From assembly GCA_009869945.1 (NCBI GenBank), contig WIXG01000048.1, positions 1 through 64,000 on the forward strand: a DNA stretch of 64,000 bases, read 5' to 3'. Of this stretch, positions 7,382 to 64,000 are shown in pieces. The translations under genes and the position numbers were made by a program. The notes beneath the pieces are model-generated. The model was not told the DNA's origin and searched no databases. It worked only from the letters and a program-made list of their open reading frames with translations. Each line of letters opens with the position of its first letter. The stretch's first letter is position 1. The stretch comes from Mesaphorura yosii (Eukaryota; Arthropoda; Collembola; Poduromorpha; Tullbergiidae).

Positions 7382-12802
<5,421 letters not shown>

Positions 12803-14529: not shown

Positions 14530-15242
14530 CCGTATTTTACGTTTTAGAACCCCTGGGCTTGTATTGTTTCAAAGGTCAGATTTTTAAGGGCTTAGGACGC
14601 AATAGAGGCCCATGGGCTCGTAATTTGACCATGGGCCTTTATTGTCTCAAACAAAAAAAATACACTTTGCCCCTTTTGTCTCAACGGTTGTACCCGACAC
14701 ACAATCAAGCCACAAGGCAGTTTCGTCACACGCAATGATGAACCCCGAGTCGTAGTGTGTTGCCAGTCTTTGTTTACGCATGAAGCGAATAAAATTGACG
14801 ATCTTTCGGACGTATTCGGCTGGCGGCTTCTGACAAGCGGTGGTCTTTCTTCTGAGAAAAAGGTTGTGCCGCTCCATAAATCTACTCAGCCACCTCTCGC
14901 CTCCATCAAATTCAGAAGTGCCCGGTTGGTTGTGCAACTCCTCAGCTTTGAGTGGTATCATTTTACATGATACGGGCAGATTCTTCTCCCTCTATTCCCG
15001 GATTAAATTAAATTAAATTTAAATTTGCGGCCCATCCCATCGTCATCTTTTCAGAACGGCTCCATCTTTAAATTAACGTTAGTAAAGTAAAGCCAAAGTT
15101 AGTAAAATAATAATGTCACACAATCCGCACGTACATTTGCTTCCCGGCTTGCCTCCATGGGCTAGTATTCTTTCGAACACCCGATTTTTGGCAAGCTAAG
15201 ACCTCGATAGAAGCCCATGAGCTTCTAAAAGGTAAAATACAG
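14530..15242 (-). mobile_element. internally deleted pogo/Tigger-type DNA transposon (713 bp)
   Basis: The ends are inverted repeats: the left begins CCGTATTTTACGTTTTAGAA and the right, read on the minus strand, CTGTATTTTACCTTTTAGAA (18 of 20 identical). Each end is flanked by TA (14528-14529 and 15243-15244), the target duplication of the Tc1/mariner-pogo superfamily. The inside holds only part of a pogo-type transposase (14647-14961, minus strand). At 713 bp it is far shorter than an autonomous element (about 2 kb or more), so it is a non-autonomous deletion derivative. Confidence 0.75.
14647..14961 (-). pseudogene. pogo-like transposase fragment
   Basis: An open frame of 104 codons carries the CENP-B/Tc5 helix-turn-helix signature (ERWLSRFMERHNLFLRRKTT) and runs into the first part of the DDE catalytic domain (FIIACDETALWLDCVSGTTV; the D of CDET is the likely first catalytic residue). 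The closest remembered relatives are pogo elements and the domesticated vertebrate protein POGK. The N-terminal region and the rest of the catalytic domain with the second and third acidic residues are missing, so it cannot act as a transposase. It lies within the inverted repeats at 14530-15242. Confidence 0.8.
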
Positions 15243-27160: not shown

Positions 27161-28481
27161 TTAATATGAATTTTTCACCATTCTGATCTGAGAAAAAAAT
27201 TTTACTACATCCATAGCTGCGTTACATTGGGCGTCTTGAGGAGTGCTACCTTCGCCGAAGAGAACGGCCGGTGGCTCTAGTGTTAGCTGGACAATAGCTT
27301 GGCACATGCCGGATACCGACTTCTCTTCAAAATCAACATACATGGCCTTAAAATTTTGTTCCTCGCCTAATTCGTCAACATATTCCATGGGATTCTCAGG
27401 TAAAAAGCTCGGATCATCACATTGGGAAATTATCGGCCCTGTCATTGCTACAAACTGCTTGATTAAATTTTCCGACACATCAGTCTTATTCTGTTTTGAC
27501 TTGGTAGGCCGTCCACGCGTTGTTCTTGCAGACTGAATTCTTTCGATGATTTTGTCATCGTCTTCATCGTAAACTACCGAACTTGACGTTTCCAGCGGCA
27601 TGTTTCTTAAGTACTCGGCCATTAAATGAGCAGCGTGTCTTTTCGCCAGCTTCTTCGATTTTCCCTTTCCCACCTGAATAAACTGGTCACCCACGGTGCA
27701 TGCCATGGCAAATAATCTCTCGTGAGGCAAACCTTCTTCTGAATGAACCTAACAAGCGGCAGGATACATAGCATACAGCACGACTGAGTTAATCACTTGC
27801 TGGTTTTCGTATTTACCCCATAAGTTGGAGGTGGATACTTCATCTTCATGCATAGTTCTTGGAGAATCCCAACCGGGTTTCCACCAGCTAAGTCTGTGTC
27901 CTCAGACGAACCTTGAGTGAGAACGGAGTCATCAGCATGGGCTGTGTGAGTCTGATCGCCCACGTCGATCAGGATGTTTGGGGCAACTTCCATCGATGCC
28001 AGCATGGCTCTGGCTGCATTATGTTTCGCTTCCTTCTTCGACTTCCCAGTTCCAGTTTCTGTAAATAGTTTTAATTTCTTCAAAATTTCTATTTACAACA
28101 ATATCTTCGAAAGAAACCATTGTTACATCTGAACTTAGCCAGCAACGCGACATTTGTAACAGCGCCTCAGCAAAACAATGTTGACTCATACCTTCGAAGG
28201 TAGTCCCATTATGCTCCAACGTGAGTCGGTACTGAAATATGGGTTCGTGGATGACGCCTTCAACTTGCAGCAAATCATATTTCGGAGTTATATTGTTTCT
28301 GGTGCAAACTTCGTGTAGCCATGATACAGGGGTCTTATTTGCCAGTCCCAAGTGATCCAAATGAGGTGCCTTGTCCAACTGAAAAGGAAGAGCATCCAAA
28401 TTGTTCAAAATCTTCAATTCCACAACCTTGTTAATAAATTGCTGAATAAGTCATTCGAAATTGTTGTGATTAGCTTACCAT
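27161..28481 (-). CDS. loqs: Loquacious/TARBP2-type double-stranded RNA-binding protein (4 coding exons)
   Basis: Cytoplasmic partner of Dicer that loads small RNAs into Argonaute. Exons: 28481-28479 (the start codon alone), 28378-28192, 28058-27817 and 27748-27161. All phases agree and give 339 residues, between PACT (313) and TARBP2 (366). Three dsRNA-binding domains are visible: about 16-87 (KTPVSWLHEVC ... TPKYDLLQVEG ... GKSKKEAKHNAARAML), about 124-192 (NPVGILQELCMKMKYPPP ... GKGKSKKLAKRHAAHLMAEYL), and a third, about 263-335, that lacks the KKxAK motif (GEGSTPQDAQCNAAMDVV). In this family the third domain binds Dicer rather than RNA. The initiator ATG sits directly against the donor (ATG|GTAAGC). 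It lies head to head with the ropporin-like gene, 1.1 kb away. Confidence 0.93.
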
Positions 28482-45086: not shown

Positions 45087-46325
45087 TCATTTCTGGTCAA
45101 CTTGTGACTCTAAGCTACCGACGTTGCTGCTAAGAGGATGCTTCACAACGATGTCCTCCATCCACGAGTTCCAGAATTTGTTCTCCGGCGCACCGGGTGT
45201 GAAGCGAGTTGATTTCTTCCTTCGGCCTCTGCAAACAAGACGAAGCTTGAATTTTTAATTTCTGGCTACGTACATCACAGAGAGCGCGCGGAGATTAGAA
45301 GGAATTACGGGAGAAATCCCCGAAACCGAAAGACGCGTGTTGCAGAGGGCTCAAGTTGCCCCGCTAAGGTTAACATCGGATGCAGGCGGGGATGAATTCG
45401 CTTTCAAGCTGTAATGACTGTTTTGCAAGACTTATTCATTTGCTATCTCGGGCTCGGATGTATGGGCTCTCCGATTGACGTAATTCGTGCCATGCTTTCG
45501 TGGGATGGATGCATTATGTCGCCGGTCTCGAATTTCGGATGCGTAAAAGTGTTTCAACTTCACTGTTCTCGTAAACAATGACCAAAAGGCTTTTTAAGTA
45601 AAAGTCCACTGATTTTGATTTTCATTGGAAAAAGGCAGAAAGTAATTAAAGCGGAAAAAAGTTTGTCTTCGAGTTGACTCACACACTGCTTCCCACGATC
45701 GGGGATGCGTGGTGTGGTGAGGTGCGTGGCAGAGAGATAGAAACGACGTTATAATCAATTAAAGACCACGGTCCCTTGTCGCCACTATCTTCTTTCAATT
45801 ATAAAACAAAAGCAAACAGGAAAGGGAGCAAGAAAGCGGCCAAGCTACACTAAAACGTTGTTTGTCCATTTTACGCACGTATGCTCGGAAAGCAGAGGAA
45901 GACAGTGCAGATTGTCATTTGCAATTGCAATGCGTCTGATGGAGAAAGAAGCGATGCATAATTTATCAACTTACAGTTTGTCAAAGTCGATGAGACTGTA
46001 GCCAGCCCCGTTCTCTTTGAATCGTCCCCAGTCGTGGAGCCTGTGATGACCATATTTCTGTAGCGCCAACAGTGTCTCCAGTTCAGCTATCCTTTGATCT
46101 GATTGTCTTTTCTGCCTCCGACTATCAATTTTAAAAGCAAATTCGTCGATTAGAACACCGTTTGACAAATGTGCTCTCAATCTCGCTGTCAGCATGCGTT
46201 GATCATGAGAAAATCGAACTACCGATGGTATGAAAAGAGATGGACACTTACACAAGCGTGGGTCTGGATGACACGAGTGTCACGGTCAGCAGAAGGACCA
46301 AGCTGAGCACCAAGACGTGCTTCAT
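45087..46325 (-). CDS. neuropeptide precursor, parathyroid-hormone-like (iPTH family) candidate (3 exons)
   Basis: Exons: 46325-46252, 46121-45975 and 45228-45087; phases 2 and 2 agree and give 120 residues. Exon 1 is a signal peptide (MKHVLVLSLVLLLTVTLVSS). Exon 2 carries RRQKR, then a peptide starting QSDQRIAELETLLALQKYGH and ending GYSLIDFDKL. Exon 3 opens with GRRKK: glycine for C-terminal amidation followed by a basic cleavage site. The predicted product is a 44-residue amide, possibly with N-terminal pyroglutamate; the C-terminal remainder (about 46 residues) has no Cys. The xAELETLLAL helix and the ...G-Y-x-x-I-D-x-x-K-[IL]-GRR end resemble, from memory, the insect PTH-like peptides, ligands of class-B receptors. 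Exon 2 could instead begin at 46181, adding 20 residues; the chosen acceptor has a good branch-point-like CTAAT about 35 bases upstream. ATTAAA on the minus strand at 45024-45029 may end the transcript. Confidence 0.75.
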
Positions 46326-49300
46326 GGTTGATGACTACGAGTATTTCCTGTTGTTCCAAAGGAGGTCGCCCGAAGAATTCAAAAACAAACGGTTGAATGA
46401 GTCTTTTATCAGAAAGTTATGCACAGAGATAATTTGAGAGGTCGTGTGCGAAGTGTCAAGCGATAATTTCGATGCACCTTTCGCGATAACAGAGCGAAGA
46501 GATGTGTAGAAGAGTGTAGGTTAAGATTTCGCAACTTGCAAATGTAAGAAACACTTTTTCTGTGAAACGTGTATTTTCCTCCTTCCTGGTCTAGAAAATG
46601 TCAATATTTTGTGGTTTCACGTTGCTCAAGTGTAAGGTAAATGTAAAATCTTGATTTATGCAACTGATAAGCGTGGTGTTTGAGCTCGAGGTTAGAAATT
46701 GTGCTGGATTCTGTCTCGGTTAGTTGCCAGTGACTGACTGTGGTCGTTTCTGGACAATACTTCATGCTTATATAGACTCACTCCACAATTTCATCATGCC
46801 AATTAAATGCGGTGTCTCAACTTGCCCCGCCGTCGCATCATACCCATTTCTAGTTTGCTCCCATGCCCGTGAACTCCTTACATCAAGGCGATTACACACC
46901 CCTGCCCGCTTTCAGCAGTATTCCCATAATGCTAAACATACACGCAGAGCATTTGGCAAGTCACTACGCGAGTAGCTGAAACGTTATAATTCGGACTGAT
47001 TGACTCATTCGCAAAAATGAGCAGTCACAAGTTTCATTTTTTGCAGTCTACTACTATTTTTCCAAACACACTCATTCATCGCCCCGCTCTTCACACATGC
47101 CACTGCCACTACTCACAAGCTATATTTACACTGTACACATTCTCGTTCTCGTATCCATTATATAATTACCGTAGCGTGCATATAATTAGAGATTGCAAAT
47201 AACGTCAAGTATGTGGCATACCAACGTTTTGCGCATCCACTTGTCCAAGTCGTCGTCCTGCTCTGAAACTTCTGGTATGGAATGAATCTGCAATTTCGCG
47301 CATCACGTGCGACCCGAGCCCAATAACCGCAACAAAGTTCAGAGAGTCCAAGCGCAATTTCATCGCGAGAAAGATCGTCATCTCGCCATTCATTCAAGAA
47401 TTCAGCGCTGAGCTCGCCTTCCAACCTTACTCATTTACTCATTACTTCCTAGAAATCGCCCAAAGAAACTGCCTTGAACCCGGGAAAGTGCTTCGACTTT
47501 GACTGCAAAATTCCTCTGCAACGTTTTTGGGTAAATCATAATTACCAATTAAGGTGTTGTTGTTCGCGTCAAGCATTTCCCACTTGTCTGCAAAATTTAA
47601 CCGCCTTAAGCGTGATTCGGTTGAAGTACCAAAAGCTGAAGTTGTAAAAATACTTTTACGATGATTTTTTGACGTCCGTAGTTTAGCGAGCTGCAGATTG
47701 GTGTTATGAATGAAATTCAGTGTCAATGCCAGCGCTTGCTCAGCTCAAAGTCTCTCATTCCCGTCTGATCGTGAGACGAATGTTTGCTTTAGCGTAGAGG
47801 AGCAGAAGCAAGATTGAACTTGTTCGTCAGCCATTCGTTATTTTGATCTTGCTCAAATTGACTTGTGTTGGCTCAGGGTTATACATAGTGCAAAATATTG
47901 CATGAAATCTCCTCGCTAGAAAAAAAATGTGTATGATTTCATTAAAGCGGTTTGACAGCCGTGGCTCTAGTCCTGAATACGTGCGTCAAGTCACGTTCCC
48001 GCCCGGATAATTCGCAAATCGTTTTCACCGGGCTTTTATACGCAAAACATGCACACTGGACATGTGCTAACAATTCAGCCGTAAACAAGTACTAGCAGGC
48101 AACCGCTTGAAAATTCGCGAACTCGCATGTCAAACGTCAAGTGAAAGTGGGCCGAAATAAAATCTTAATGATGAAATGTTGCATTCAGGATCCAAAATCC
48201 GGGGGCTGTTCTTATTTCTCAAATTGGATTTATTTATGTGGACGCAATTCCGAATAAACCTACGTGCACGCGTCGTTGTCGGGTTCTCTTACTCAAATGT
48301 AAATATTGCATCAGGATGGTTATGTCATCAACATAATATTGTGATATGAAACTGATGTCCGAATTTCGAGTAGGGTTTTCCATCCAGCAGGAGAGATAAG
48401 CGGTCGTAGTGCGCAATTCGTGCCATACAATTGAGATTTATGGAAATTTGGAGAAATGAGAATGTCACATCAAGCACGTAATTTGTTGCAAGCCTGTCGC
48501 AAAATGCCCCAACCGAACTTTGTCAAATATTCGCAAACAGCTTTCGTTGATTTTTGCAAGCTTCATGTTCCGATTCAAATCTCGGCTTCGCGTATGTCAC
48601 TTGTTAATTCCTCTTGTCGACTCTAACCCAATTATGTTTACTGACATCATATGATACAAGGCACGCATGCGCGTTTTGCAGACATGACATATACTTACAT
48701 GCATGCTTTCGTAATTCACCGTGCGACGTGCGATCGGACACCACGTCACCATCGCATTATATTATTGAAACTATACAGGTGACGGTCAGCCCGCCCGAAT
48801 TGTGAATCAGATGTCAACTCGTAAAATCGATGCTATATTGGGAAAGAGAAGTGGCAAGTACCTGCCAAGTCTATGTTTACCATTGTCGTGAGTGAATGAA
48901 AGGAAAGACGGGTGACGCTGACGCAGACGTTCTGCATTTCAACGCATGCATGCCAAATTCGTGGAAGCATGACTGCATGATTCATGATGAGGTTGATGAA
49001 ACTTCGCACCTTGAACTACCTAACGCGAGAATGGCGAGACGATGGACAGGACGGACGATAATCCTTGGAGGATTATCCCATGATCTATCAGTTCCTGATT
49101 GCTCGCACGATCACGGCACCCAACACCCATACAATGTGTGCTCGTCACCAATCAATTAACTCACGCCATGCCGTGGTGGCTGACGTCCTTGCCAGCGCTT
49201 AAACTCAGTTGTGTAAGTCCAGGATTCTCTTGGCCAGGCCAGCGAAATGAATGGAAGCATGAAATGATGATTTTACACCCTGCTTTGTATCTGCGATTTG

Positions 49301-53974: not shown

Positions 53975-55398
53975 TTAAACCGATTCTTGAACAGGAGGTT
54001 CATATTGATCAGGCTTGTCAACTTTTTCTCCCAAATCTTCACCAGCTGTTGTTTTGCCTCCTCCATCTCCGTGCAAGTCCAAAAGCTTAGATAAATCAAA
54101 TCGTGGCTTTTTCAGGACTTTCACCTGGAATAGAATTCCGTAGCAATTAGTTTTCGGCTTAGTACATTTCCTTGCACCAGCGAGCTATTGCTTTTCCATT
54201 ACTCATGTCATACCTTGCGAATATACACGTCGTGCAACGGGTAAATTCCATGACAAGCCTTAGTGATGTCAGTGGCGATGGAATCCGGAATTAACATATT
54301 GACGACATCTTTCATGTCGTGAGTGGTGACTTCCTTGGTGATGATTTCCACCATCTTCTTGCGGATCGCCTTGACCTGAAATAAATTAATTTCGTTTAAA
54401 ACTCTGAATCACAACGATAGAATTGATATTCCGGATTTTTAAAATGATTCATTATTTCTGCGTAACAAATGGGAAATTTTCGAAAGCAAGGACTTTACCT
54501 GGGTGTGCTGCGCATAGCACGTCTTCTTTTTGGAAGCCTGGTCCTTGTGAGTATAGCCAATACAAAATACTCTCAACAAATAGCCATCCGTAGTCTTCAC
54601 GTCAACGTTGGCTTCAATAAGCGTCTGCCATTTCTTGACCATTGATCTCAATTTGTCGGTTGTCAAGTTCATTCCGTGAAAATTCGTCAGCACATTGTGG
54701 CCTTGGACATCTTCCGAAATTAGCTTGAACTTTCGGAACGACCTCTCGGCGTCATTCTCCTTCTGCAGGTCTGCCAATGATACCTCAAACACTCTGCCCT
54801 TCAGGCCCTCCGAAGCGATTTCTGAGACAAACACCAGTCAATTAGATTTGGGTTTACGCAGAAGGAAAATTGCAGTGGTACAGTCAACATACTCGTTCCT
54901 TGTGTACGATTGACCAAGGTTTTCCCCACTTGACGGACAGTAAAGATAGATGGTGCCTTGACGTCGTACCAATCCTTTCGGGTGAACGGGTCAATGCTGA
55001 AATTAACATAAAATGTTCATTATCCATAAATAATAGTGCAGCAACTTGACAACATTTCCAACTACAGACATAATTGAAGAAAGTATTCCAAGAAAGAATC
55101 AGTATCTTCAGTCTGGTAACTTGACCATTAAATATGGTAGGATGCATATGCAGTTTAATCGTTATCGCCAACCATGAAAGGCCGCTATTGAACGTAAGCA
55201 GCTGACTACAATCAAAAGCCTAGACTACTTTAGGCCCATTCTTATCAATCTAAACGAAGGAAAAGGGAATCAAAGGTATGGGCCTATGGCCGGCATTTTC
55301 CCGGCAAGTTACAGTTGTTAAGATATTTGCACTTACATCTTCTTCTTCGCACCCTTCTTTCCGACCTTGGACAGGCCCTTGTTCTTTCCCACTGCCAT
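53975..55398 (-). CDS. RpS3A: 40S ribosomal protein S3a (eS1), 5 coding exons
   Basis: Structural protein of the small ribosomal subunit near the mRNA exit site. Exons: 55398-55337, 54996-54893, 54821-54499, 54375-54214 and 54124-53975; all phases agree, giving 266 residues (human 264). Near-identical family blocks are seen in order: [106 protein letters not shown], and the C-terminal YEPPVQESV. The bases before the ATG contain a likely acceptor (AAATCACAG), so a 5' UTR intron is probable and the TOP-type promoter would lie further right, about 55.5-55.7 kb. The introns were searched by eye for box C/D snoRNAs and none was convincing. Confidence 0.97.
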
Positions 55399-56365
55399 AC
55401 TGCTCACTGATTTTAGAGACTGTGATTTAAATTAGAAAATACTTCACTAATTAACTGGACTAACACTCCGAAGCCCGATTGACTACTGTAGGAATACGAA
55501 TGCAAATGCACGGTCAACCGAGAACAGTGCAGTCGTCTGCCTGTACGCTACAACTCACATATTGCAGAGAGGAGCACGCCGTGTTCCTGTTTCAAAGACC
55601 CGTGCATCAAGAAGCATGGACAGCAAGAGAGAGGCCGGTTTTTGCCTTGTGTTGCCTTTGAGAGATGTGTCTATCTCTGCGAAGGTGTCGCCACAATGCG
55701 CTTCACGAGTGTCTTGCCTCGCATTGCCCCGTGCAAGCAGATGTCTCAGGCTTGAGTTCTCAGGAATTTGAGACTGGCTGACACAGCAGTCAAAATCAAA
55801 ATATTGACAACAAAAAGTGAATTAGAAGAGAACAGTTAATTGTTAGAGAATAAGTAACTTGAATTAACTGCACCTGGTTTTCAGTCAACTCTGGCCAGTA
55901 GCCTAAACTGATACTGAAAGTTAACAAGAATTGAAGATATACTTTGGTGAAATTAACTTTGGTGATAAGCGTTGTTGTTGGTCTCATTGGCTGCGGGAAC
56001 TTCGAATTGAATACTCACGTAAAGAACACTTTCTGATCTGTAAATTATTTGCTTGTAAATTACCTGGCTTCGGTTGAAAAATAGCGTAAAAAGTTGTGTG
56101 GACTTCGTCTAGCGCTCCTGAAATCCCCATATTTCAAGAATCTCTCCCGATCACTTGCTCATCATGCAGTGCAACTATCAACTACTGTGACTGACTGACT
56201 GGGCACAAACTATCGTCTAACGGAATGACAAGGGCTAATTTACCAAGAAGATGGGCAAGAATCGAACCAGGAAGACTAGATATTAGTAAATGTTAACATG
56301 TTAACACTCTGTATGATGGTTTACTGATCGAGGATTGATACCTCCTGCGTCTGGGGTTCCTGACC
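55399..56365. promoter_or_regulatory. divergent upstream region of RpS3A and TMEM185
   Basis: RpS3A is read leftwards and TMEM185 rightwards from this 970-base stretch, so both promoters should lie here, together with at least one untranslated RpS3A exon. The short frames at 55479-55771 are GC-richer than their surroundings but resemble no protein. No TATA box was assigned. Confidence 0.4.
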
Positions 56366-58341: not shown

Positions 58342-60874
58342 ATGAAGCTGATGGATGCAAGGAAGGTGGGAACTACTGACTTTCCAGTTCTGGTTAGTTG
58401 GTCACCGAAGTCAGACGTTTTTGCAATTGTCTATCAAAATGGTAAGTATTCATCAGTACATCTTAACATTAACGTCCACTGAATGTGTGCGATAGAGAAT
58501 GAAAATTTGATTTTCAGCTCACGTTTCTCTCCATCGCATAAATTGGCAAAAGGTTTTCGACTGCGGCTGCCTGAAGGAGGGAGTGCCTGACCATATTACT
58601 TGGCATCCAGAGGGACGGTACATTTGCCTAGTGATCAGTAAGCAATCAGTACCCAATATACTCTTCTCAACGAATTCTTTTCACTTCATTTCGTCCCATT
58701 TCTTGCAGGAAGGGTGGTGTACATTTTGGAAGTGGATCGTGGTCGTTTGATGTCAAAATACAATATACCTGATGAGGTGTCTTGGTTGAAATGGCGTCCG
58801 ACCAGTTACGAAACGGTCAATACCGATAAGGTAAGCAGCCTAGTATTTTTTCTATCGTTCTTGCTTTTGGGACCAAACATGATCCAGGCTTGTCTAACAG
58901 AAAACTGAAGCGGATTGCAAACCGAGGACTAGTAAACAACAAATTGAGCAGAAATTGTCGTTGCTGATATTTGGCTGTAAAAATGGGAGCATTCACGTAT
59001 ACGCTGGAGGCCATGTTTTGTTATATCAGATTAAAGCTCCGTCGTCAATTCCTCGGCCTAGAATCTTAGCTGCAGATTTAAGCGATGACTTGCAGTGCCT
59101 TGAAACAATAGGGTACAGAGTTAAAAAGTCGGAAGATTCAGAAGGCACTGATTTCATATTCAAGCACTACAGAAATTTCATCACACCAGCCTTAACCGAC
59201 ACCATCGGGAATTTGATCTTCCGATTCAGTTCATTAAGAAGTACATGGAAACAAACTATAGGGCAATTAAATGCCTTGTCTGACTCTTGGGCTAAAATAT
59301 ATGATGTCTACAACTTCTACATCAGTCACGGACGGGATAAGCCACTTGAAGATGCACTTGCACAGTATTATGAACTCGCTTTAAACCGCGTGGATTCAGC
59401 CGAAATTAACATGTTTCTATCCGCTGGTGGTAGAGACAAAGAAGTGAAGAAGAAACTGCCAACTATCACAGCCAATTCAAAGAGTCTGGCTGAATCAATT
59501 CCATCCATCAAAATTAACATTACACGGTGTGCCTACGATATTCAGGCAATCTGTAATTTCATACGACGGTACTCGCCCGTAAGTACAGATAAAGTCAAGA
59601 TCAGACTCCTGAAAAAGGCAGAACTTGCGTTTCAGGAACTCACTACCTTCATCCACCACTTTCACTGTCTGTCGCAAACATTTGCGGATGATTTGATCCA
59701 GTTCATGTTGCTGATAACCTACACGATTCACACGTTCAATTCTACTGATTACATCACCGAGATGTTCGATATACGAAAAGTGTTGCGATTATTGGACTCA
59801 AAAGTTTCTAAAAATGTGTTTGAATATTATCTCCTGAACCACAGTTTCGCGACACAACATCCCGACGAAAAAGAGGAAAATAAGAAATCGCCCAGTGCTC
59901 AGATGCAAAATATGCTTGCGTCATTGAGTAGAGAGAAGTTAACACCAGAACAGTCAAGCGAGCCGGAAGAGGCATCCAAGTTGGAGACACCGCCTGCGAG
60001 GTCACCACCGAAGAAGAGAAGAAGCCCTCGAGTGTCCTCCGGCTCAGAATCCAGCCCCAATTCCAGTGATTCCAGTCCCAGCTCCAGCCCAAGAAAGAGC
60101 GGCTCACCGGAAAAGAGCGGCCATTCAAAAGCAGATTGTGATTTCTTGAGAAACGTGTTTCGGAGTTTGGGTGGTCCTAACCAGAGCATTTTCATTGACA
60201 AATTATTGGATGGCGTATTTAAAATCCCGCTAGTGGACCCAGACTTCGTATACGCCCCTTACGTCCTGTTCGACGTGGAAGACATAGCAGTCAAAGTGGT
60301 TGCCAGCGATATCTGGATGGACCCGGAAACACTGAAAACCCGAATTTTCGTACAACTTGACAGTCGACAAATGTACTTGTTTGAGGTTGATTGCAATCAG
60401 AATTCACCGACATTTAAGTCAGCGTGTTTAACGTTCTCGCGAGAACTCACAACGACCGTCTTCTTTTCTACCGATTATTTGACGACGGTGAGCTACGATC
60501 CTAAAGACAAGAAAGAGCAGCACGTGCATGGGCGCTCAATCGTGTGCCAGCTCTACATCTCTGAGGCCCTGGCAAACTGTGTCAAGAAAGAACTGGGACA
60601 CATGGTCATCGAGGACGGCGATCTTTGCTACACCTTACCAGCGCCCAGCCCTGTGGAGGTGCACGTGCCAGTTGCAGTTGAGAAAGCAGGCCCGTCGCTG
60701 TCTCCCATCTTGAGTCATGTGCTGCCAATGGAAAATATATGCCCTAAACAAATTGCGGTCAGCGGTGCTAGAAAAGTGGGTATTCTACTGAATAAAGATA
60801 AAAATCGAATATTGTTACTCGATTTGGATCTTGCTACTGCTTGCGATGAGGAGGACACAGAAATATTTTATTGA
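58342..60874 (+). CDS. ANAPC4: anaphase-promoting complex subunit 4 (4 coding exons)
   Basis: Scaffold subunit of the APC/C ubiquitin ligase, which links the platform to the TPR lobe and helps drive cell-cycle exit. Exons: 58342-58441, 58518-58637, 58709-58830 and 58901-60874; phases agree, giving 771 residues (human 808). N-terminal WD40 repeats: VLVSWSPKSDVFAIVYQN, HVSLHRINWQKVFDC, ITWHPEGRYICLV, VSWLKWRP, IFGCKNGSIHVYAGG. A central APC4 helical domain follows (for example QAICNFIRRYSPVS and a block around IQFMLLITYTIHTFN). A Ser/Pro/Lys-rich linker (about residues 440-500: PPKKRRSPRVSSGSES...) is unusual, probably disordered and phosphorylatable, and precedes a C-terminal beta-propeller part. 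The first three exons are small and the fourth is 1974 bases without interruption. The 3' end converges on NUP98. Confidence 0.88.
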
Positions 60875-61067: not shown

Positions 61068-64000
61068 TTAAAAGGGCTTATCTAGTTGGACACCAGCCTC
61101 GTTGAAGCGGAGTTGCTTGAAATATTCTTCCAAACGTCTGGGATATCGGCTCAAATCTGGAGCAGGACTTGGAAATTCTAGTGCTTTCATCTGATCAATC
61201 AAATGTAGGGTGTCAGCGGGCGGGCGGTCAACTACAACTTGCAAAAGATATTTGATTATGAAACCCATGGCAACGACGAGTTGGCTGAAAAACACAAAAA
61301 CACATGAGTTCAATTTATTTACCGTGCTTGACTTGCATAAACTGAACTAAAACTGTGATATGTATTGCTTACTAATCGATAGCATCTTGCGGGCAAATTC
61401 TTCCGAATGATGCAACGGCCTCTGGCAGGGCTGGAAAAAGACGCTCGCGAGGAAAATCAGCTTCTCCGTCAACTTCCTCCACCGCCTTCAGTAGATTGTA
61501 CAAAGCGCCTCCATATCCCTCCCAATTATGTATTTGGTGGGAAACTTTCGCCATTTCTTCTAGGAGAGTGAATATGCTGCCCATTTTTTCTAAATTCAAA
61601 GAATACATCAGTTTTTGCTCTTTATTCGTTTTCTTAGAACACGAAACATTACTTACTGGGTGATAGGAAGCTCTTTCGGGATTTAGTGACAAAGACTTGA
61701 TACGCTTCATTGTAGCGTCCGCTTTTGAGCAAATACCATACTTCTTCGTAGCAGCTGCGATAATGATTGTAGATATTAAATAGCCCTTGGTATCAATTAT
61801 ATATATATTCAACCAAGAAACCGAAGCTTACCTTTGTTTCTTAACTGCAGCTACTACCTTGGCCTCCCAGATTGCCTTTGGATTTACGCCAAATGATGCG
61901 ACAAATTTTTCCAGCTGAACATCGTCGGATTTGAACACATTTCTTTCCAGAATTCTTTTGATTAAGCACGTTGTTTCTTCGGACGGATCACAGTGTTGGA
62001 GAACAAATACAGCCCATTCAAAACAATCAAGTGCTTCCAGCTGACGGGCAAAGCTCTGGCTAACATCGTTAAACAAATCAGTCTCCACGTCAAATCCAAA
62101 TCGTATCACATTGTTCATGAGCAACCACGACACTTTGTAGTCAAGAGCATCCGGGCTGCGAATCCTCGCAGAGAGCAATTTCTTGACGGGGTATCCAGAG
62201 CAACTGTACGCCTTCAATAGGTTGACGCATAAATTAGCTGCTGTTGGTTCCTCGTGAGTCGAGGCAGGGAAGTTCAGATCGGACGTATCACAATCAGCAG
62301 GAACGATAGCCATCTTGATGAACCGATGATAAAGTTCGACGACTCGAGGAATGCTCTGGTTGATCGGAGCCAAGTACCAGATGTAGACGGCGAAGTGTTG
62401 AAGCCATTCCGTCGTGGTCATGTGGCAGAGATTAAGTCTAGCCCAAATTGGGCAGCCAGAACACACTTGATACAGTTCTTTCAGATCAGGAGACAAAAAG
62501 TCCTCAGCGTTGCAAATCTCCCACTTGAGCATCTGCACATCTGTGGTCTCTTTAGCGTCATAGCTGTTCTGTGCCATGCATAATGCCAGCGTGCAGTTGT
62601 CTTGTTCTACGGCTTCTTCGCAAGCTTTCAGTTTCTCTCCTCGACGAACAAGGGCAGTTACAGAATTGTCGGAACGCGAGTCCCTGAACACTCCAATGCC
62701 GTCGGCAACGAGCCATTGAGTAAGTGCTTGTCGTTGATAGTAGCAAAATCTTCGATCAAGTCTTCCCGTAAATTTTTTCTCAACTTGGTCCTCCGGCCAC
62801 AAAATCTTGCAAAGATTCCACATGTGCTCCTCTTCCTCCAACAGTTCGTTGTTGTTCCGTGGCCCAGTCCCACTCGCTGTTGCTGCTTTGTGTCGCAAGT
62901 CCTTCAATGCTTCTGCATGTGATGCAACGTTGCCGAAAGGACATGGTGCAAATTTGCCTTCGTGAAGCAACTCAGAACTTTGCCGCTGTAATTCTAGTTG
63001 TCGTTTTAAGGCTTGAATTGTTTTGACGGCCGTTTTCTCTGTTTCCAATTTCTCGAAGTATGGCTGCAGTCGCATGACGTTTACTTGTCCAAGGTAGCCT
63101 TTGGGCCTAGTGGTTCTTACATTCCTGATTCGAAGATAGTGTCCACCGGGGCCAAATCCGACACGGCCTCCTCGGTTTGAACGGGACGGAACACAAGGTG
63201 GTTCTTCATACAATTCAGCAAACATGTCTTCTGGACGTTTGATTGCGATAAGAGGCGGCTGTCTTCTCTTTATGACTTTACGTACTTGCATGCGTGGTTT
63301 GATCATTCGACCAAATCTGTCCTCTATAATGCTATCCTCAAGTGTAAGCTGTTGGAGTAGCTGTCGCGGACGAAAGTCATTTCCTGATTTGAGTTCTGTA
63401 GAATACCCCTTCGGCTGCACAATCAAAGTACCACCAGATGTCAGCTGAATGGATGGAGTGGGCGTTTTCTGAACAAATGATGGTGTCATACTTTTCGTAG
63501 CCATGCTGAATTCTGAGTCCGTGTCAGGACTCACTCCAACATCCGCATATTTTAAGATCCTTCTCGGTGCTGGTGGAGGACTTTCCAAGAAAGAAAGTGT
63601 GGCATCAAAATCCTGCTTGACTGGTAGCGCTGACGGTCTGCCTCCCCATTTTCCGCTCTTGATACTCAAAGCGTACATGGAATCAGACTCCTTTCGGCCC
63701 CATCTTGACTCGGGCGTTCTTTTGGAAGACGCAAAACGAGGAGGTCGAGACTTCTTCGCAGGAGCGATTTCTATACAGCATATAAAGATAAATTCATTAT
63801 GCCGTGCTCTTCATATGTAGTAACATTCTAGTGAATAGAATGCGATGAAAAGACAAAGCAAAAAGCAACTGAGGTGCAAATAGTTTATTTCGCCATCGAA
63901 TTTAGAATTTTACTACTTGCGAGCTTCGCTTTACCGCATGATTCTGTGTTCTATTAAATGTAGAGTATTTAGAGCCATTTACCATCAACACTTTCATCAA
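61068..64000 (-). CDS. NUP98: NUP98-NUP96 nuclear pore precursor, Nup96 half (partial, continues beyond the window)
   Basis: Nup96 is a scaffold nucleoporin of the Y (Nup107-160) complex, made by self-cleavage of a NUP98-NUP96 precursor. Exons seen: 64000-63983 (partial), 63770-61832, 61754-61657, 61589-61373 and 61284-61068; phases agree throughout. Matches to the Nup96 alpha-solenoid domain include YQRQALTQWL, LALCMAQNS, CPIWARLNLC, HFAVYIWYLAP, DALDYKVSWLLMNN, FEWAVFVLQHCDPSEE and KAIWEAKVVAAV. The N-terminal part of the large exon (about the first 250 residues) is the less conserved linker, rich in basic residues. The GLFG/FG repeats, the Gle2-binding site and the HFS autoproteolysis site of Nup98 are not in the window and must lie to the right. 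A stop codon of the minus strand ends the protein with DKPF. Confidence 0.9.

Follow-up and report, generated by a model that had tools for sequence, protein, structure and literature searches.

Three short open segments on the minus strand raise the question of whether they together encode an amidated neuropeptide precursor and, if so, to which hormone family the product belongs. The segments lie in what is referred to here as the window, which is the whole 64 kb stretch of DNA analysed, and which makes up the opening 64 kb of contig C48 in a genome of 93.0 Mb and 1127 contigs that was itself searched. When the three predicted exons are joined (Table 1), a frame of 363 nt is obtained, made up of 120 codons and a stop, and no internal stop was found across it. 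Both introns of the neuropeptide gene are of phase 2, run from GT to AG and possess the same donor, GTAAGT. An in-frame stop stands four codons before the ATG.

Read from its N-terminus, the precursor contains the leader MKHVLVLSLVLLLTVTLVSS, the segment RPTLV, an RRQKR site, the 44-residue peptide QSDQRIAELETLLALQKYGHHRLHDWGRFKENGAGYSLIDFDKL, a GRRKK site and a tail of 41 residues, and is entirely free of cysteine. The leader is a candidate signal peptide on the basis of its hydrophobicity, with cleavage presumably falling after VSS in line with the −3/−1 rule. The dibasic site RRQKR is immediately N-terminal of the 44-residue peptide, which opens with the residues QSD and, at position −4, carries Phe rather than Pro. 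Intron 2 interrupts the codon for the last residue of the peptide, and the glycine required for amidation is encoded on exon 3. For the amidated 44-mer the predicted [M+H]+ is 5167.66, and that of the pyroglutamate form is 5150.63. The preliminary description of this DNA had put forward a three-exon model with matching phase 2 introns, and this is borne out at the positions given in Table 1 as an intact 120-residue frame; the layout of signal peptide, RRQKR, 44-residue peptide and GRRKK also reads as it had claimed, with the leader judged by hydrophobicity. Its two further remarks, that the peptide and its amidation site are on different exons and that no single frame reveals the gene, hold equally. 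In the latter case, the open frame containing exon 2 (45971–46279, 102 codons) starts inside exon 1 but out of frame with it, reads across intron 1 and ends in the second donor.

Table 1. Positions of the predicted neuropeptide gene, its putative control signals and the candidate receptor gene. Positions are those of the window, except for the receptor gene, which is on contig C15
Feature	Position	Strand	Description
TATA box candidate TATATAAG	46767..46774	-	Single copy on the minus strand in the window, one more on the plus strand; putative function
TCAGT initiator-like motif	46733..46737	-	Its A follows the first T of the TATA box candidate by 39 bases; putative function
Probable 5′ untranslated region/promoter-proximal stretch	46326..46764	-	Without ATG; gap of 440
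Exon 1	46252..46325	-	74 nt; start codon, predicted signal peptide (residues 1-20), RPTLV; phase 2 end, followed by GTAAGT
Intron 1	46122..46251	-	130 nt; GTAAGT..TAG; predicted from sequence
Exon 2	45975..46121	-	147 nt; RRQKR site and 44-residue peptide minus the last base of its final codon
44-residue peptide QSDQRIAELETLLALQKYGHHRLHDWGRFKENGAGYSLIDFDKL	45974..46105	-	Encoded by the unspliced reading of the stretch
Intron 2	45229..45974	-	746 nt; GTAAGT..CAG, pyrimidine-rich 3′ end; predicted from sequence
Exon 3	45087..45228	-	142 nt; GRRKK amidation/cleavage site, 41-residue C-terminal tail, stop TGA
Polyadenylation signal candidate ATTAAA	45024..45029	-	57 nt past the stop; putative function
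PTH-type class-B1 receptor gene	C15:240062-246471		Exon pieces joined by eye

The family with which this precursor has most in common is that of the arthropod PTH-like peptides (iPTH), formerly known as PXXXamide (Tribolium castaneum; PMC7224569). As set out in the iPTH passages of that paper, the precursor consists of a signal peptide, KR, the peptide, GRR and a C-terminal extension; an SD near the N-terminus is highly conserved, the GXX strictly so, and a Pro at −4 mildly so (PMC7224569). The window peptide resembles this description in its preceding dibasic site, its SD near the N-terminus, its glycine plus basic residues and its C-terminal extension, and it shares with Tribolium iPTH a C-terminus of the form I-D-x-x-[RK]-[IL], in its case predicted to be amidated. 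It departs from the description in having Phe in place of Pro at −4, and in its middle portion (HHRLHDWGRF), which has no counterpart in the iPTH text of PMC7224569. Because the Pro is only mildly conserved according to that text, it is not strictly family-defining. Precursor length speaks for the family as well, with 120 aa for the window gene and 110 aa given for two tenebrionid beetles (PMC9552230). Beyond the arthropods, the QSamide/QSGamide and PXXXamide peptides of molluscs, annelids, nemerteans and others are considered iPTH-related or orthologous (PMC8557429, PMC8398477), and the legend to one alignment of the family lists a sequence from Daphnia pulex (PMC8398477).

Direct comparison with iPTH was made against one 14-residue C-terminal stretch from Tribolium, the antigen TMPVGGGRIDPGRI-amide (PMC7224569), aligned without gaps at the amide. 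Three of the 14 residues are identical, for a BLOSUM62 score of 5: the two sequences have in common the G at −10 and the I-D at −6/−5, and are similar at the end through R/K and I/L. A score of 5 is reached by 0.57 % of 100000 shuffles of the 44-mer. The window has 52 unspliced G[KR][KR] sites that follow 14 open residues, and not one of them attains this score. On its own the comparison with TMPVGGGRIDPGRI proves nothing, because 449 of the 64017 14-mers in the six frames of the window score equally high, with a top score of 33. The best such 14-mers (33 at 56237–56278, and lower) were considered as candidates in their own right and rejected; a glycine plus basic signal follows none of the 15 best, and they are therefore attributed to chance, which in turn reveals the weakness of so short a comparison.

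Wider searches returned little that resembles the product. Against Pfam, the precursor gave a single coiled-coil match, no better than chance (E 0.17; 11.9 bits, with the cut-off at 35). Vertebrate PTH, PTHrP and TIP39 are helical ligands, and their receptors belong to the same class-B1 group as those of iPTH. A PDB search with the window peptide yielded no match at E up to 10, to these ligands or to any other protein. Tribolium iPTH itself is less than 12 % identical to the human peptides (PMC7224569). A genome search at E up to 10 likewise returned no second copy of the peptide, its two hits being exons 2 and 3 themselves.

A further line of evidence comes from the receptors encoded in the same genome. 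Counting exons separately, there are 51 matches to the class-B seven-helix domain (E up to 0.001) and 17 to the hormone-receptor domain (E up to 0.01), 11 of the latter being above the family cut-off. For the gene on contig C15, the best PDB match is human PTH1R (1e-65, 225.6 bits), followed by PTH2R, VIPR2 and the calcitonin receptor (208.8, 203.2 and 176.4 bits, respectively), as judged from the best 60 of 89 matches. In the opposite direction, searching the genome with human PTH1R (E up to 0.001) produced 10 matches, with pieces of the C15 gene ranking first (47.5 bits), second (37.4 bits) and ninth; matches on C145 (37.2 bits) and C50 (35.0 bits) fall just below the second C15 piece, the gap to C145 being 0.2 bits. 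The controls covered the class-B receptors on C145, C101 and C165, each of which found calcitonin-type receptors best (142.6, 153.2 and 143.3 bits, respectively), with a CRF receptor next for C165 (135.5 bits). The C145 control was empty at the stricter threshold, and its result derives from a looser one. With human PTH1R as both its best and its reciprocal match, the C15 gene is, as far as its sequence can tell, a PTH-type class-B receptor.

In published work, receptors of cluster B (the PTH/GCG/secretin group) number one in Daphnia pulex and two in Tribolium (PMC3961327, Table 2). Synthetic iPTH activates two receptors in Tribolium, with EC50 values of 63 and 413 nM; receptor RNAi in this beetle affects cuticle maturation, eclosion and egg numbers, and RNAi against the ligand is described as giving no phenotype (PMC7224569). 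The preliminary description had assigned the peptide to the PTH-like family, and had named a PTH-type class-B receptor in the same genome as a means of checking this. The receptor is found on C15, reciprocal with human PTH1R, and the assignment is supported by it and by the SD head and the G-plus-basic site, both of which, Pro apart, fit the iPTH description of PMC7224569.

Other class-B receptors in the genome display a variety of arrangements. Those on C145, C50 and C389 (L016, L018, L022, L023, L032, L033, L037 and others) are mutually similar; C50 and C389 are alike by eye, and C145 is calcitonin-type. They perhaps represent an expansion of the DH31 receptor. Separately, class-B seven-helix domains on C464, C202, C80 and C1040 (L002, L010, L005 and L006) occur in stop-free frames of 371 to 845 codons, and so differ from the many-exon hormone receptors.

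With regard to the identity of the locus, the reading that we prefer makes it a genuine neuropeptide gene belonging to the arthropod iPTH (PXXXamide) family, the peptide of which would activate the C15 receptor; to this we assign a probability of about 0.78. Taken separately, its parts differ in strength: the locus is very probably a real neuropeptide gene, and that gene is probably a member of the iPTH family. Of the competing explanations, the one that survives best retains an authentic amidated neuropeptide gene, but places it in a lineage-specific or other family, such that the SD and the ID..KL-amide would be convergent and the receptor would be another class-B or a rhodopsin-type protein. 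Identity of 3/14 to the Tribolium stretch is weak, the middle of the peptide is without parallel in the iPTH text of PMC7224569 and Pro is missing from −4, whilst the genome contains several further class-B1 receptors. Set against this, the published iPTH description (PMC7224569) accommodates the overall layout as well as the two ends of the peptide, no second similar gene was recovered from the genome in a search at E up to 10, and a PTH-type receptor is present. Membership of another family is thus improbable, albeit with some weight still attached to it. The C15 receptor has no alternative ligand gene in this genome that we are aware of.

It is far less likely that the locus specifies a short secreted product without hormone function, such as a peptide involved in defence or related to the cuticle, in which the basic sites are incidental, for although a signal peptide and short length are compatible with such a product, the precursor is cysteine-free, has no Pfam match near the cut-off, and displays R-x-K-R just before and G-R-R-K-K just after the 44 residues, flanks that constitute the layout of an amidated prohormone.

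The remaining alternative is that the model is a chance join of open segments, with no gene present. A strict layout search of both strands, specifying GT[AG]AGT donors, a hydrophobic N-terminus, a dibasic site, 28–60 residues, and a G[KR][KR] ending at or past roughly the second junction, recovered one model in the window, the gene itself. At least one such model arose in just 3 of 1500 dinucleotide-preserving shuffles, a figure to be taken as a rough guide because the strict criteria were drawn up with the gene in view, having been fixed only once it had been seen. An earlier strict run gave a model in 0 of 100 shuffled windows. When donors and leader were treated loosely, the window contained 17 models from 5 start codons, and shuffles contained at least one model in 49 of 60 cases and reached 17 in 4 of 60; splice models of the loose kind are abundant in shuffled sequence, and therefore carry little meaning.

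Three features that were outside the layout search criteria are the ATG-free gap, the TATA box candidate and ATTAAA. The 440 nt without ATG that lie 5′ of the start codon form the second longest of 1185 ATG gaps on the minus strand, and ATG-free windows of 415 bases make up 16 of 12717 sampled on that strand and 5 of 12717 on the plus strand. On its 5′ side the gap is closed by an ATG lying directly after the sole TATATAAG of the minus strand. Spacing between a TATA box and its initiator is usually shorter, making the 39 bases seen here somewhat long; another TCAGT is present at 46667. Codon usage, scored with a training set of 1788 codons from the window, leaves exons 2 and 3 unseparated from open non-coding segments, as scores at or above theirs are reached by 19.2 and 17.6 %, respectively, of 3000 open segments drawn at random. 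Scans of the window for Rfam families and tRNAs returned no matches, and a DNA pattern scan gave 5 matches, a chance level given that 36 of 100 shuffles had equally many. Although the undecided codon usage and the many spurious models that loose criteria yield, in shuffles as well, would suit a chance join, the rarity of the strict model in shuffles, together with an ATG-free leader, a TATA box candidate and a poly(A) signal candidate that all lie outside the model, renders it scarcely credible.

Returning to an iPTH-type neuropeptide gene, its product would be expected to follow the route established for prohormones. The leader would direct the precursor to the secretory pathway, where convertases would cleave after RRQKR and at RRKK, R-x-K-R being a furin/convertase-type site. 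A carboxypeptidase would then trim the basic residues and the exposed glycine would be converted to a C-terminal amide, with possible cyclisation of the N-terminal Gln to pyroglutamate. By analogy with Tribolium iPTH, the released peptide, probably mainly helical, would activate the C15 class-B1 receptor, and may act on the nervous system, the gut or the cuticle. When the 44-mer is modelled with single-sequence AlphaFold2, helices are placed at residues 2–32 and 38–42, and the top model of five has a mean pLDDT of 87.5; this helical model is a hint only, because the other four have values of 58.5–65.3. The hydrophobic moment of residues 2–18 is low (0.057) and is reached by 96 % of shuffles, and lends no support.

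The surroundings of the gene contain a range of unrelated sequences. Between 33000 and 54000 the window is apparently gene-poor besides the neuropeptide gene, the longest listed open frame being 173 codons. On the minus strand, a ribosomal protein S3Ae exon lies at 54442–54837 (2.3e-40), and a long exon with a Nup96 domain (4.6e-40) at 61831–63810 probably belongs, on this match, to a Nup98-96 gene. Between these, on the plus strand, a 658-codon frame at 58898–60871 has only a weak DUF693 match, below the Pfam cut-off, and is one that we take to resemble a Mediator subunit. At the other end of the window, again on the minus strand, double-stranded RNA binding motifs occur in two open stretches at 27164–28450, the first of which has a weak Staufen C-terminal match below the cut-off. 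A Tc5-type transposase DNA-binding domain (14650–14991, 1.9e-8), part of a transposon, and a choline/ethanolamine kinase exon (1262–1753, 1.3e-30) are found on the same strand, as is, within 9713–11694, an exon with an NDT80/PhoG-like DNA-binding domain (7.1e-13). The residues that follow this domain resemble myelin regulatory factor; the frame beside it, 11002–11694, gave no Pfam match. Across the genome, there are 66 matches (E up to 0.001) to the Chitin_bind_4 cuticle domain, an arthropod marker, and three of these proteins resemble, by our reckoning, the RR-1 and RR-2 proteins of pancrustaceans. COX1 gave no match in the assembly at E up to 0.001, and a fatty-acid-binding protein, judged from the best 60 of its 243 matches, was of no help in telling arthropod groups apart.

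The iPTH family and its receptor are already published, many insects and other arthropods possess them, and the PTH-type system is kept by many arthropods, with the exception of Diptera and Lepidoptera (PMC7224569). The window gene leaves this picture of the arthropod PTH-type system unchanged. The predicted peptide stands out in two respects, the divergence of its middle and its Phe at −4. If the iPTH reading is right, a diverged member would be added to a ligand family deorphanised in 2020, along with a matched receptor candidate from the same genome, and a direct receptor assay would therefore show which portions of the sequence are family-defining. Gene finders readily overlook small prohormone genes of several exons, because no exon displays a domain. 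More tentatively, and with rather less confidence than attaches to family membership itself, the gene may represent an iPTH-type ligand that has lost the PXXX-amide signature, has acquired a new middle segment, and has been kept with its PTH-type receptor in a compact arthropod genome of 93 Mb. Were this the case, the SD head and the ID..KL-amide tail would be essential contacts, separable from a dispensable middle.
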